Shown one piece after another: positions 1-62,049 of a stretch of DNA of 64,000 nt. The stretch spans positions 3,071,616-3,135,615 of the forward strand of contig JACEVL010000150.1 in assembly GCA_020284085.1 (NCBI GenBank). Direction: 5' to 3'. Position 1 is the stretch's first letter. The number at the start of each line of letters is the position of its first letter. The notes under the pieces were generated by a model that was given only the letters and a program-made list of their open reading frames with translations, was not told where the DNA came from and made no database searches. The position numbers and the translations under genes were made by a program. The DNA comes from Aporrectodea caliginosa (Eukaryota > Annelida > Clitellata > Crassiclitellata > Lumbricidae).

Positions 1-3000
1 GATTCTTTTTCTTGCAAAGGTAGGTCTGCATCTTTTTCCTGTTGCTGAAGTTGGTTCCCTTGATCTGGTTGTTTGTTCCCTTGATCTGCTTGTTGGTTCC
101 CTTGATCTGCTTGTTGGTTCCTTTCTTTTCCTGAAAATTAATGTCAGCCGTGCCTTTTTCTACCATTTGTTAACACGTTAAATTATTAAATGGACGTAAA
201 TTTGTTACAGTTGAATAAAGAAACGCTGTCTGTCACTACTGAATAGCGACCCGTAATGGGAAGCTGTATCCCATTGTAGGCCTAATCATTTGCTTACCGG
301 TCACAGCACTGCGTAGAAATACGCAGCCCTATATGGGCCAAGGTTATTTCATTATCTGACCGGCCAAAGACCTTCGAAGTACTTTTCAGAGGGCCACTGG
401 TGACTTTTTAAACACCTAAGCATTGCTTGCTATAGCCGATAAACTTCTGGTTCAGGTTATCGTAGATAGGGTCACTGAGCAATTATCCTGAAGTAATGCT
501 AAACGTATATAATTTTCTACATGTAAATACTATTATAATTAAAATTTCAATACACTTCGTGCTCTCAGTGCAATAATGGTCTACTGATGCTGCTCGTCAT
601 CTACCGTTCTGGCTCCTCGCCTCCTTTATCTTCAGAGAGTTTGCTTATTGTCTAGAGGTAATGGCAATTTACACATAACATAAGTGAAAATTTAGATTCC
701 AAGACTCCAAGTAAGACGTAGGCTAACTTGGGAACAAACTATACTCTTTCAACCATTTTCGATAGGTAAGACAGATTTGAGATCGGACGGTGTTTGGCTA
801 TGACGGCAGGATCAAGGTCGAGGCCTTTGAGCGATGGAAGTACAATCATGTGAGCGCCTCTGAGGAGTATTTCTTGAAGTGGCGCTATATAAATTTACGA
901 TTACGATTACATGTACATCAGTAGCGAACTGAATATCCATATCGATGCCCACTGCGAATCAACTCTCTCAAAACCAGAGATGATCACGCGATTCAATGTA
1001 GCATGGGGATTGGGGAAGATCCCATAGCTTTCGGATCATGCTATCCCACTGTTCAACATCCTTTATAAACACGCTCAACCGCTGTATGTAGTCAAGTCTG
1101 AAGGCCAACCCCGTAGGACTGTTCGACGGTCTCATCTGCAAAGACTTGTCAACCATGCATGTTTGTATGTATGTATGTATGTATGAGATTACCTATTATA
1201 ACCAGCTATGATCACGCGATTGGTGCGCCTCTGATTGGTGTGCACTGCGAGAGGCGCTATATAAATTGACATATACAATACAATACAATATTATAGCACA
1301 GTTTAAGTAACTTACAAAGGTGCTGTACCCATGACTATCTAACAGATCTAAACAAGTACTTTTTAAGACAGAAAATGCATGCTGCCCAGAGTCAAAGGCA
1401 GCAGTACGCAAGTGCAGTGGCAGACTGTTCCAGGAGGATGGTCCAACACAAGTGAAGGCACGATGGGGTTGAGTTGAAGTGCGACAGCGAGGTAACTGCC
1501 ACTTCAACATCGAGCCCATCTGCAGCCCATAACTCTATGGACCGCAGAGCACAACGGTCGCCGACCCAGCTGACTCGAGGCTAGAACACAGAGCTCCCTG
1601 ATGTATGCCGGAGCAGTGCCGACAATTGAGGCACGTGTCATCATAATGGTCTTAAATCAATGCGCTCAGCAACAGGAAGCCGGTGTAGTGTATCTCGCAT
1701 AACATATTCAGTTGCAAATACTTGGCTTTCGTTGTTGGCTACGGTTCGGGCAGCGCTATTTCGGAACTTTGGCAGACCAGCAAGTATAGAATTGCAATAG
1801 TCCAAGTGTCGTGATGATTCACTCAATCATCACGACACTTATGCTATTGCAATTCTATACGAGGTTCACTGCCGCGCTGAAATATAGATTGCATCGTATG
1901 ACTCGTATCTGGCGCAACTGTTAGACGCAGGATCTGCCGAGGTGGTTCACATGATCCGCCATTGATTTGTTTCCGTCCAGAGGCACACTCAGGCTTCGAA
2001 CGACTGACTCTTGATTCCAGTCAGGGAAGGCTATACCTCAGATAAACTGGTCACCACCTATGAATCTTCATTGCAAGATCGACGACCTTTGTGACTAACG
2101 AACTGGAAGAGAAAGAGCATTACAAGAAAAAGAGAAACAGCTACAACAGAATGTATTTATAGCAACCGTGGCATTTAAGCAGCAGTTGCCGAATGATCTT
2201 GAGCTTAATTAGAAAAGCAATCATGTATATAATTGTATCTTATATATGCATATATAGTTGAATTATATCATATAATGTACGCTTAAATGCGGTTCGCACT
2301 TGGCTTTCCAATAAAAAACATTCCATCTATCTTTTTATAAGTCTACATGTATGTTTGCAGTGCATGGTCTATAATATATAATGACAAAGGATGCTTCATA
2401 CATCATATAGGACCTACAATTGCCACTTGTCGCCAAAGGTCGACTGTTGTCTGAGTTGATAATTTCTATTGATATCCAGTTGACTTATTTGATATTTAGA
2501 CAAACTTGTAAAGGTTAACGTTGTTAAATAAGTTTCTAATAAATTATGTTTTGAATGTGAAACTGAAGGAATCGGTCACTAAATAGAAAACGAAAACATT
2601 TAATGGAAAATTCAGTTGACTTACTTATGCAATAATACCAGACGACAAAGGCTACAAGGCATACGACTGGAATGAATGCCCATAAGCCATGCAGTGCCGT
2701 TTTATTCCAAGTAGGACTCGGTGCTGGTGTCGGGCCAATTGAATGTGTGCTTGAGTCATATACTTCAGTAGGACCTATAAAATTTAAAATTTGAACATAT
2801 GATAGTGCATCGTGTTATATTGGTCATATACAAGTTGCGGCGATGCGAGACTAGCTAGGCAAGTCAGGCCAGCTTACGGGAAGCACGGTCAAGTTAGATA
2901 ACTAGGCATCTTAAGCGTTGTAAAGTCACGTGAGGTTAGACCATGTAAGTTGGGCGAAGATAGGAAGAATGATAATGGTTATCTGATCACCTCTGTAATC

Positions 3001-59600: not shown

Positions 59601-62049
59601 ATAGTTTAAACTTAATTAGTTTGCATGCTTATAATTATTCTGGCATTAACTGTCATTGTTAGTAGTAAGTCACTGTTAAATACCTATCACTGTGAGTTCA
59701 GCGTCTTTGAACGGTCCGCGTCCCTCCTTTTCAATACATCTGTATAAGCCACCGTCTCCTAACTTTGCCGATATGATGATCAAATTGCTATCTCCCGTAT
59801 TGTTATTCATCTGTGCCTCGTAACCTGACGTGTAGTTGTCGACGAACTTTCCACTGATGTACACATCAACTGGTAGACTCTTTCCAAGTGGAATGTGCTG
59901 CCAGTTGACAGGTTCTGTCTTGAAGTGCGTAGTGCAAATCAGCAGGACTCTTGCACCAACCTGAGCTTCTTCATGCTCCGGTACAATATACAGGTCATGG
60001 TTTTCTACCCAGACAAACAAATAAAATGAAGGGTTGAAGCATATTTCTGCTATCTGAATGAGAAATCATATTCTATGCATTGGAAAATGTGGATATGATG
60101 CACAGTTATTCAGTCGCCAGATGAAGCGCAATTGGATATTCAGATGCTTGACAGCCACTGAGATAATTTATTATCGGTTTAAAGACTTTCTTGAAGGAAG
60201 AAAATATTTGAGTTTTGGAGAAACGTAGATAGTCATTTCCGTTCATTGGGGCAGCTGATTGGCAGCTTATGCTATTTCTGCATCCAAATAATTTCCTTAT
60301 CCAAATAATAATAGAATGCATGGAGGTATATCAAGGGAGACCATTGGCTGAATGCACGGTCCTAATGCCTATATAACTGTAGTTTTGTGAATCGAAGTGC
60401 ACCCAGTTATATGAAGTTGCATGTATGTTGTTGTCTATTTCAATATGTAATCAGTTCATACAATGTAATGCGTGCAGTCTTTTCAGATGCATTTACAAGC
60501 CACTACATACAAACTCACTTACTTATTAATCATACCAAATTACCCATGGTGTAAAAGATAATAGGAGGAAATAGGGGGCATACCTACAGACGGCTCGAAA
60601 TGAATGCGAAAATGAATCTCAGCAGAGAAGAGCCGATAAAGTGAGGAATCCTAACCCTACCTGTAATGTTAAGATTGACATCTGCGTGTTCGCCTCGTCC
60701 ATCCTGATCCCGACATCTATATGTTCCGGCATCACTCAGCTGAACCGAAGGAATAACCAAGTTGAAAACGCCTGAGGTGCTGTTCCCGTGCATTTCAAAT
60801 CGATCCTGGTAACCATTGACAAGTCCTCCGCTGAGAAATACGTCTCTAGGCTGAGACGGAACATCACCCTGAGCAGCAGGAACATATTGCCAGCTGATAT
60901 TCGTCGTCAGATCAGACGTTGAACAGTTCAACTGAACTCTGTGTCCCTCCAAAGCGGATGTATCTCGAGGCTCGACCAGTAGAGTTGCGCTTGCTAAAAA
61001 CAATAAAATCGTCATTACATTTACAAACCCAGCTCGGTGCAACAAGACTTTAAGTGGTTCTAATGCCACTCATAAGTGAACTAACCCTACCCGTAATGTT
61101 GAAAGTGACATCTACATGTAAATGCTCCTAACATCCAACCCTGGATTGAATGACTGACAGAAAAAATATCGGCTGCACTGTAGTCATGAATGTCATCACA
61201 AAGTATATTTCGTCGTGGTCTATAAACACACTTCAACTATATTAAAGATATAATTATGTCTAACCAAACATAACTCATACATAGCTTATTATTGCCGTGC
61301 CTCAACTCATCTTTCATTACCTGATCTTATCTATTCCGCCCAATATTACCTAACCTCGCCTATCATAACAACCTGACATAACCTAACGAAACCAAAACTT
61401 AGTCTGACCTCACCTTAGCAAATTTACCTAGCTTTAACTTAAAGTGTCTAATCTCTTCAGTCTTCGTGATTTTATGTTATCTTAACTAAATCAGCCTCGC
61501 ATGAATTATATAATTATGTAATCTAATCTAACCGACCAAGTGAGTAATATATCGGTGAGGAATTTTTCACTGGTTCGGGCCAGGAGCGCCACTGATGATT
61601 GCTTCTTGAAGTGGCGCTTTATAGATTTCAGATTACATTACAATTATATGACATTGTGTATATGCCTACGGACATACTATATACAATTATACATGTTGAC
61701 TTGCATGCATGCATACATATAAACACGTGATATTATATTCCCCAAATAGCTACATAAGAATCAACACACTTCCTCGTTCCACTTCTGCCAGACTGGATTG
61801 TTCTGGTGTGGGATCAAATCAAAACGCTCATAGTAACCAACGATAGCTTCCCTTCCTAACAACAATCAGGGCTGAACTGATTTTGGGTAATGCAGCTAAT
61901 TAATGCGGGATAGACCTACATGTATAGCGTTCAAATCTTAACTACAGAGCGGAATACACGCTGCAGTTTCGCCGGAACTCACCGTAACAACAGTAACACA
62001 CGAAAAGCGAGATATCGAAAATCCAATAATACTGGTTTCCATGCATCAT
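56614..62049 (-). CDS. M3: intact three-Ig-domain type I membrane receptor, 387 aa
   Basis: Exons in transcript order: 62049-61983, 60993-60661, 60004-59684, 58981-58700, 57353-57237, 56657-56614. Their lengths total 1164 nt, an open frame of 387 codons plus TGA. The signal exon begins MMHGNQYYWIFD. Ig1 (23-133), Ig2 (134-240) and C2-like Ig3 (241-334) match M1 and M2 exon for exon (333, 321 and 282 nt in all three genes). Residues 335-373 hold a short stalk and a helix (LYLLLLLIPIVVVAIVVLYV). The tail is only 14 residues (KKEHSYQQAKRSDR), with one tyrosine outside any ITIM or ITAM pattern. The introns are the most compact of the three copies, so M3 is the best template for the ancestral gene structure. 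The plus-strand partner expected upstream is not visible before the window ends. Confidence 0.87.
57800..58080 (+). mobile_element. tRNA-derived SINE
   Basis: Has GTAGTGATAACATCACTGG (A-box region), GCGGGATCGCTTCCCGTACC (B box), the body GGGCGCCTTGCATGGCTGCC and an AGTATTATTA end. It lies in the M3 intron between Ig3 and the transmembrane exon, inside the GGTAAG-rich zone that is uninterrupted in M2. Confidence 0.7.
61560..61640 (+). mobile_element. LINE/SINE 3' tail
   Basis: CTGGTTCGGGCCAGGAGCGC then GATTGCTTCTTGAAGTGGCG and GATTACATTACA. A short tail-only fragment in M3 intron 1. Confidence 0.45.

Follow-up and report, generated by a model that had tools for sequence, protein, structure and literature searches.

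A mosaic array of head-to-head immunoglobulin superfamily gene pairs in the annelid Aporrectodea caliginosa: a putative locus of paired recognition receptors

A 64,000-bp stretch of the Aporrectodea caliginosa genome (GCA_020284085.1, contig JACEVL010000150.1, here C149, positions 3071616-3135615; this whole stretch is hereafter called the window) lies within an array of immunoglobulin (Ig) superfamily genes, for putative type I receptors, arranged as head-to-head pairs. The array spans about 137 kb and contains four pairs, each composed of an M gene and a P gene, plus two extra P genes, in the order P, P, M1/P1, M2/P2, M3/P3, M4/P4. All 4 M genes are on the minus strand and all 6 P genes on the plus strand. 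In our view there is about an even chance that this is a birth-and-death locus of paired recognition receptors, with P as the predicted signalling protein and M as its putative partner or ligand. Paired, co-duplicating recognition-type receptors are a kind already known; what is new here is the family, the relatedness of the pair-mates and the re-assortment of transmembrane (TM) and tail exons.

The genome comprises 1,097,852,775 bp in 4,544 contigs. Flanks of 100 kb on the left and 80 kb on the right were added to the window, and the array order comes from an exon scan with hidden Markov models (HMMs) over the resulting 244 kb. Coordinates are window positions unless a contig is named. The original prediction, made from the letters of the window, described five related Ig genes on alternating strands (M1, P1, M2, P2, M3); these were found as described, and a search of the full assembly for more units extended the array on both sides of the window, adding P3 and M4/P4 on the right and two P genes (Pa and Pb) on the left. 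The array is thus more extensive than could be seen before. M4 and P4 are open, exon by exon.

The M genes consist of a signal exon, two V exons, a C2-like exon and a stalk and TM exon, separated by GT-AG, phase-1 introns. The Ig exon lengths given in the original prediction (333, 321 and 282 nt) are exact in M1, M2 and M3, whose reading frames are open through the TM segment. The exons are as follows, on the basis of the gene models except where another basis is added:

21010..21076, minus strand: M1 signal-peptide exon; ATG, donor GTGAGT, block conserved in M1-M4
14996..15328, minus strand: M1 Ig1 exon, V-set, 333 nt; Pfam V-set 6.9e-11 for the M2 copy
11009..11329, minus strand: M1 Ig2 exon, V-type, 321 nt
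9215..9496, minus strand: M1 Ig3 exon, C2-like, 282 nt
2625..2774, minus strand: M1 stalk and TM exon, 150 nt; donor GTAAGT conserved in M1-M4
1..131, minus strand: candidate M1 cytoplasmic tail exon with QADQGN repeats, running off the window; open frame after a TTTTCAG acceptor, low confidence
44447..44507, minus strand: M2 signal-peptide exon; matches the relative P0003 (see below)
42484..42816, minus strand: M2 Ig1 exon, V-set, 333 nt; Pfam V-set
41340..41660, minus strand: M2 Ig2 exon, 321 nt; Ig profile match below cut-off
38963..39244, minus strand: M2 Ig3 exon, 282 nt; Ig profile match below cut-off
37686..37811, minus strand: M2 stalk and TM exon, 126 nt
61983..62049, minus strand: M3 signal-peptide exon
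60661..60993, minus strand: M3 Ig1 exon, 333 nt
59684..60004, minus strand: M3 Ig2 exon, 321 nt
58700..58981, minus strand: M3 Ig3 exon, 282 nt
57237..57353, minus strand: M3 stalk and TM exon, 117 nt

The M3 signal exon ends at 62049, which explains the end coordinate of the original prediction. The short tails proposed for M2 and M3 remain putative: their TM exons end at the GTAAGT donor conserved in M1-M4. Reading past this donor as a tail, the likely basis of that proposal, was set aside because GTAAGT is kept in M1-M4 and the tail of P0003 is different. No convincing tail exon was found for M2 or M3. A stretch similar to the candidate M1 tail exon is present just beyond the window edge, and the M1 tail probably lies at or past the left edge of the window. 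The M tail is probably without signalling motifs.

P2 encodes 395 aa in 5 exons (signal, V, C2-like, TM and tail), again with GT-AG, phase-1 introns. The P1 and P2 exons, on the same basis, are:

25836..25875, plus strand: P1 signal-peptide exon
27949..28254, plus strand: P1 Ig1 exon, V-set, 306 nt
28801..29144, plus strand: P1 Ig2 exon, with an in-frame TAG at 29043-29045
30140..30283, plus strand: P1 stalk and TM exon, class A (TQETT stalk)
30513..30826, plus strand: P1 tail exon; the frame ends ahead of the last YVNV
46474..46519, plus strand: P2 signal-peptide exon
47240..47548, plus strand: P2 Ig1 exon, V-set, 309 nt; V-set profile, AlphaFold confidence score (pLDDT) 83.4
49122..49466, plus strand: P2 Ig2 exon, C2-like, 345 nt; weak Ig match
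51612..51722, plus strand: P2 TM exon, class B, 111 nt; TM class comparison
52337..52713, plus strand: P2 tail exon with YEEM, YARL, YVNV, YLNV and YVNV; motif reading

The P genes had been described as two-Ig genes with signalling tails. This applies to P2, which is intact, and not to P1, which carries the TAG in Ig2 and a tail that stops before the fifth tyrosine motif. A stop also occurs in the P3 Ig2 exon, at the core Trp codon, so that broken copies number 2 of 6 for P and 0 of 4 for M among the exons seen. A reading of P1 as having no TM exon proved wrong, as a P1 TM exon of the other class was found.

M and P belong to the immunoglobulin superfamily, V-set. The Pfam V-set profile matches M Ig1 (6.9e-11) and P Ig1 (9.1e-7) above its curated cut-off; Ig profile matches to M Ig2 (V-set 8.6e-4), M Ig3 and P Ig2 (Ig_3, E 0.0014) fall below the respective cut-offs. 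The V-set hallmarks C22, W33, D79, G81, Y83 and C85 are invariant over 10 sequences. In HMM-HMM comparison, M_Ig1 matches M_Ig2 (E 9.8e-22), and both match P_Ig1 (E 2.9e-9 over 79 columns and 5e-8 over 69 columns, respectively). The match between M_Ig3 and P_Ig2 is weaker (E 1.3e-5, 23 columns, probability 81%), and the six remaining domain comparisons gave E 0.011 or worse. P can therefore be written as V-C2 and M as V-V-C2, and the M/P pair looks like an old inverted duplication after which one V domain was doubled (or lost). The P2 V domain was modelled as a V-set fold; Foldseek matched it to at least 1,679 chains at E up to 0.001, with sodium-channel beta3, CD244, JAML and CAR at the top, which makes the fold a generic one. 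The TM segments of M and P look uncharged by eye, and charge-based pairing with adaptors bearing an immunoreceptor tyrosine-based activation motif (ITAM) is therefore not suggested.

Relatives outside the genome agree with the gene models. Three protein searches covered 5.77 billion proteins, one of them scoring only the 8000 candidates that shared most words, and six relatives were returned. None bears a name, in keeping with the earlier statement that no named family could be recognised. P0003 (465 aa, from a 2,090-bp contig) aligns with M2 over 346 aa, 249 of them identical (72%), gap-free and across four predicted junctions from the signal exon to the TM exon; its tail has 62 aa and no tyrosine. 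P0001 (427 aa, from a 3,698-bp contig) aligns with P2 over 259 aa at 64% identity with 3 gap positions. We infer that P0003 and P0001 are spliced transcripts, because their contigs are too short for such introns, and the relatives appear to be spliced across the predicted junctions. P0002 (304 aa) is a tail frame in which the cassette YEEM/YVRL/YVNV/YLNV occurs three times in tandem; 2 of 3 copies are without the YVRL tyrosine, YEDM replaces YEEM in one copy and YLTV replaces YLNV in one. It is probably unspliced, since its first residues read like the P1/P2 intron, and it illustrates how the number of signalling sites may vary through repeat copy number. P0004-P0006 each consist of one P-type exon. 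In P0002, a Pfam match to MIF (1.7e-5, above cut-off) was taken as spurious by judgement, and an AlphaFold model of P0003 alone (pLDDT 35.6) was not used. Viral contigs scanned with P0003 and with the reverse-transcriptase frame described below gave one pattern match each, none confirmed; Rfam gave no match at gathering scores.

The duplicated unit is, as had been proposed, the whole head-to-head pair together with its spacer, since colinear coding and non-coding blocks align between units. Counting plus-strand colinear chains only, units 1 and 2 share 23 blocks (11,641 aligned bp, 77.2% identity) that begin 3' of the M TM exon, take in M and P with the divergent region between them and reach the P-M spacer; units 2 and 3 share 7 blocks (5,233 bp, 78%) and units 1 and 3 share 10 (4,719 bp, 74%). 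Every one of the 4 M genes has a head-to-head P mate, with both M-side and P-side 5' blocks conserved. In the 244 kb, M1-M4 are the only places with the first 470 bp of the M-side block, and P1-P4 the only ones with the P-side block; about 100 bp further upstream of M is a dispersed repeat. In the four pairs the start codons of the mates are 4,759, 1,966, 8,019 and 5,232 bp apart. The shortest of these regions is:

44508..46473, no strand: M2/P2 head-to-head intergenic region; start codons separated by 1,966 bp, 5' blocks conserved on the M side and the P side

M1-M3 are 89-93% identical in their Ig exons and 64-75% in the TM exon; non-coding identity is 70-81% outside recently shared tracts and 81-86% immediately 3' of the TM exon.

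M2 is mosaic and combines M1-like with M3-like DNA. In the 5' part of M, sites uniting M1 and M2 versus M3 dominate (268 vs 36 and 41), and over Ig1-Ig3 it is sites uniting M2 and M3 (158 vs 63 and 59). The chi-square for this switch gives p 1.9e-43 with site linkage ignored; of the 10 blocks, it sets 1-2 against 3-8, without the TM exon (12/11/23), the block 3' of TM or any gapped column. In the block 3' of TM the counts are 15, 10 and 8, and M2 with M3 is not favoured. The 5' half of M2 is M1-like and its 3' introns are mostly M3-like, the switch point, judged by eye from the site list, being in the 3' part of the Ig1 exon. The M1-like stretch is:

42848..45171, no strand: M2 stretch that is M1-like (intron 1, signal exon, upstream), with repeats interrupting; block alignment and site patterns

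A single unequal crossover of the form A-(B/A)-B was dropped as the origin of M2, because P1 and P2 would then be expected to resemble each other roughly as much as the copies of the shared M tract do, which is not the case. Units 2 and 3 as recent copies would predict a P3 near-identical to P2, which is contradicted by P3 Ig1; as this is only 80% identical to P2 in protein, separate conversion or crossover events seem needed.

The P genes are also re-assorted. Their DNA identity is 82-91% across genes in Ig1, Ig2 and tail, and their TM exons fall into two classes: class A in the two left P genes and P1 (76-84% identity within the class) and class B in P2, P3 and P4 (86-90%), with 45-51% between classes. 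A tail exon of the YxN/YxxM type gave five matches genome-wide (six candidates scored), all in the array, behind TM exons of class A or B. P4, of class B, has a different tail, probably of four exons, which matches the P0001 tail piecewise, at 74% (31 residues), 55% (20 residues; E 0.23, weak by itself), 76% (17 residues) and 74% (91 columns). From this distribution, P2 and P3 join a P4-like TM exon to the tail type seen in the left genes. Both tails may also be reached by alternative splicing. The original prediction held that pair-mates are linked and co-duplicate, with receptor and partner inherited together. Co-duplication as pairs stands, as the four mated M genes and their two 5' blocks indicate; strict linkage and joint inheritance do not, given the mosaic M2, the two P genes without a close M mate and the mixed TM and tail classes of P2 and P3.

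Several repeats lie among these exons. A reverse-transcriptase fragment (15435-16415, minus strand, RVT_1 3.5e-23) separates the M1 Ig1 exon from an intron-1 block that in M2 and M3 lies next to Ig1. An inverted pair of retroelement fragments, 96% identical, occupies M1 and M2 introns (13014-14063 and 39777-40824, RVT_1 in the second). The M1 Ig3-TM intron contains two arrays of a 161-bp minisatellite, oppositely oriented and with about 1.3 kb between them (5730-6375 and 7701-8514), and a direct duplication of 1.17 kb, 99% identical (3074-4240 and 4550-5718), either a recent tandem copy or an assembly effect. A (TAA)n tract of 610 bp is at 16975-17584.

The P tails are rich in tyrosine motifs. 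The P2 tail has 3 YxN motifs versus 0.15 expected, a count reached by 0 of 2000 shuffles, and the P2 and P1 tails each contain one LPYVNV resembling an immunoreceptor tyrosine-based inhibition motif (ITIM). We take YxN to be a Grb2/GADS-type site and YxxM a PI3K-type site. P2 'YVNVSLQ' resembles the repeated YVNV Grb2/GADS-type sites in the tail of the adaptor LAT; LAT is not known to have an Ig ectodomain, and the likeness is one of short motifs only. No ITAM or hemITAM occurs in the five tails scanned, so an ITAM reading of these failed; the remaining tails were read by eye. The P0001 tail contains TVYASI, kept in P4, which fits the pattern TxYxx[IV] of the immunoreceptor tyrosine-based switch motif (ITSM), and 6.8% of P0001 tail shuffles give one such motif. 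The ITSM is absent from the P1, P2 and P0002 tails.

Elsewhere in the genome, an M1 Ig2 query matched all 150 of the places scored (491 candidates) on 63 contigs, 83 of the 150 being in 16 clusters of at least 3; the weak matches may be unrelated V domains. A P2 Ig1 query gave 32 matches of 150 scored (258 candidates), of which six, at 72-100%, are all in the array. On contig C1095 there are four distant M-like V exons, all minus and one with stops, and four P-like V exons, all plus, three of which have a P_Ig2-like exon after them in the sequence retrieved. The M-like exon at C1095:133603-133902 contains two stops, so broken copies are not confined to the array. Seven contigs, by hand count, carry both kinds at distinct places, and the strands are wholly opposite in C149, C1095, C45 and C108. 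This is a tendency and not a test, because tandem copies are not independent. Clusters of 3-10 M Ig2-like V exons, many mostly on a single strand, are found on C125, C410, C77, C216, C240, C601, C877 and C648. The V-domain clusters elsewhere are possibly a genome-wide family.

How might such a locus work? M1-M4, P2 and P4 look functional, and the array is real; its function is predicted from sequence. P would signal through phospho-tyrosines and use its V domain, whose loops resembling complementarity-determining regions vary most, to read foreign surfaces or other cells. Five of the six P tails would offer pYxN (Grb2/GADS-type) and pYxxM (PI3K-type) sites, and P4 an ITSM-like TVYASI. M would be the co-encoded partner of P, acting in trans as a cell-surface ligand or in cis as a co-receptor that does not signal. 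The array itself expands by pair duplication, is re-assorted through recombination or gene conversion and sheds P copies by nonsense mutation. By analogy, the role could be in allorecognition or immunity. Co-encoded recognition pairs have precedents, as described in PMC12065747, PMC12324515 and PMC4718992. The M ectodomain appears to be under purifying selection, with a ratio of nonsynonymous to synonymous substitution (dN/dS) of 0.34-0.47 in three pairs (codons containing stops were dropped here and below). In favour of a recognition role, change in P Ig1 concentrates in the loops: dN in the BC, C'C'' and FG stretches is 2.82 times that of the rest, a value reached by 0 of 101 circular shifts (six exons, 15 pairs, P1 and P3 included). 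A set of five P Ig1 sequences that takes in relatives shows the same tendency (2 of 105 shifts, with the unshifted one in the count).

Several observations weigh against this reading of the locus. First, Pa and Pb are without a close M mate: the closest minus-strand M-like V exon to their left, at C149 3028849, is about 21 kb off and a distant relative, and neither Pb (2.8 kb scanned) nor Pa (3.0 kb scanned) has the P-side 5' block or a recognisable signal exon. Second, the opposite-strand rule is not kept in C4543, C654 and C1017, that is, it holds in 4 of 7 contigs. Third, no 7-mer conserved in all four M-side upstream regions is in common with those conserved in all four P-side ones. Fourth, P1 and P3 are interrupted by nonsense codons, and the single canonical ITIM of P2 is reached by 18% of shuffles. 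Fifth, P1-P2 dN/dS is 0.54 for Ig1, 0.85 for Ig2 as far as the stop and 0.79-1.11 for the tail, so that constraint on the whole tail looks weak in that pair, in which P1 is interrupted. Finally, the P Ig1 loops have a dN/dS of 0.67 vs 0.35 elsewhere, not above 1, and positive selection is therefore not shown; the circular-shift control is also lenient, because the loop stretches were set by the V-set plan after the alignment had been viewed.

Some of these points fit another explanation, in which M and P are independent pathogen-sensing or regulatory paired receptors (KIR/LILR-type), each with its own ligands, and the head-to-head order is a relic of the old inverted duplication. The related V domains of M and P, two P tail classes on similar ectodomains, as in paired receptors, the P genes that have no close M mate, the many similar V exons elsewhere and the strand rule broken in three of seven contigs are all consistent with it. 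However, whole-pair duplication with both 5' blocks in four of four units exceeds what it needs, and M has no evident signalling motif (M tails here are not in view; the P0003 tail has no tyrosine). We consider it somewhat unlikely. A more specific form of the partner reading favoured above, which we judge unlikely, is a new self/non-self complex of an animal lineage with a matched heterophilic M (ligand or co-receptor) and P (receptor) per unit and specificity in the P loops that resemble complementarity-determining regions, where recombination would alter the signal of a given ectodomain type by swapping entire YxN/YxxM 'adaptor-in-cis' tails and ITSM-like tails, within a genome-wide V-exon family.

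It is quite unlikely that the array is an expansion of adhesion-type Ig genes (tissue or neuronal) with no immune or allorecognition role. The V/I-set does resemble adhesion molecules, the best Foldseek matches include sodium-channel beta3, CAR, JAML and myelin P0, and contactin and NCAM2 rank high in a PDB sequence search; yet the YxN-array or ITSM-like tails, the mosaic array, the loop-focused change and the nonsense copies, none of them proof, suit an immune-type locus better. A decaying array of mostly non-functional copies, to which the nonsense codons of P1 and P3, the retroelement fragments within introns and the P1-P2 tail dN/dS would point, is very improbable, as M1-M3 are open through TM, their Ig exons are 89-93% identical against 70-86% for non-coding DNA outside recently shared tracts, M ectodomain dN/dS is below 0.5, and the frames of P2 and, taken one exon at a time, of M4 and P4 are open.

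Literature searches with limited sets of terms in one library turned up, among titles and the openings of abstracts, nothing that we recognised as this array. By anatomy, it may work like Botryllus FF/FcoR, tgrB/tgrC and CD48/CD244; membership in any of these would be putative. In the fuhc locus of Botryllus schlosseri, FF (fester family) and FcoR (fester co-receptor) genes are described as neighbouring pairs, with gene content varying by pairs and several clusters (PMC12065747). Fester and uncle fester are there without a known signalling domain, and the co-receptor has ITIM, hemITAM or core tyrosine motifs; the FcoR ectodomain consists of a V-Ig, a sushi and two C2-Ig domains, followed by a long tail that can hold an ITIM or hemITAM (PMC12065747). 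The two systems are alike in adjacent pairs with tyrosine motifs on one partner, here four adjacent pairs in one array; unlike the description of Botryllus, the ectodomains here are V-V-C2 and V-C2, and the P tails are YxN/YxxM or ITSM-like. No sushi domain was matched in P0001 or P0003 (E up to 0.01) or in six domain queries (E up to 1).

In Dictyostelium, tgrB and tgrC are described as paired diverging genes for ligand-receptor allorecognition with one shared promoter, tgrB being shortened at 13 of 25 pair loci and tgrC full-length in 96% (PMC12324515). Diverging pairs in which copies of one partner are broken (here P, 2 of 6, against 0 of 4 for M among the exons seen) are a parallel to tgrB1/tgrC1. 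In contrast, the amoeba proteins have TIG/IPT domains versus V-set Ig here, and the shared promoter compares with start codons 2.0-8.0 kb apart; no TIG domain was matched in the Pfam scans, in which V-set and other Ig profiles matched instead. The SLAM receptors are described as clustered V-C2 relatives, often with ITSM tails, among which the tail-less SLAMF2 binds SLAMF4 (PMC4718992). A cluster of putative V-C2 type, the ITSM-like TVYASI of P4 and P0001 and the presence of CD244 among the nearest folds of the P2 V domain recall the CD48 (SLAMF2)/CD244 (SLAMF4) pair. However, SLAM is a vertebrate system, CD48 is anchored by glycosylphosphatidylinositol, five P tails are of another type and the CD244 fold match is one of many; no sequence-level link to SLAM was found, the six homologues bearing no names. 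Hydractinia Alr is a large linked Ig superfamily family with ITAM/ITIM-type motifs on candidate genes (PMC12065747, PMC11999971). It differs in that no pair unit is described in these two accounts, the comparison being by description only.

Receptor genes that co-duplicate in pairs are already on record for Botryllus, and Dictyostelium has its tgrB/tgrC pairs. If A. caliginosa adds another such case, with related pair-mates and tails re-assorted from unit to unit, the divergent pair would look like a recurring route to recognition systems, and the array would allow asking directly how matched specificities and the sign of the signal persist or change under recombination.

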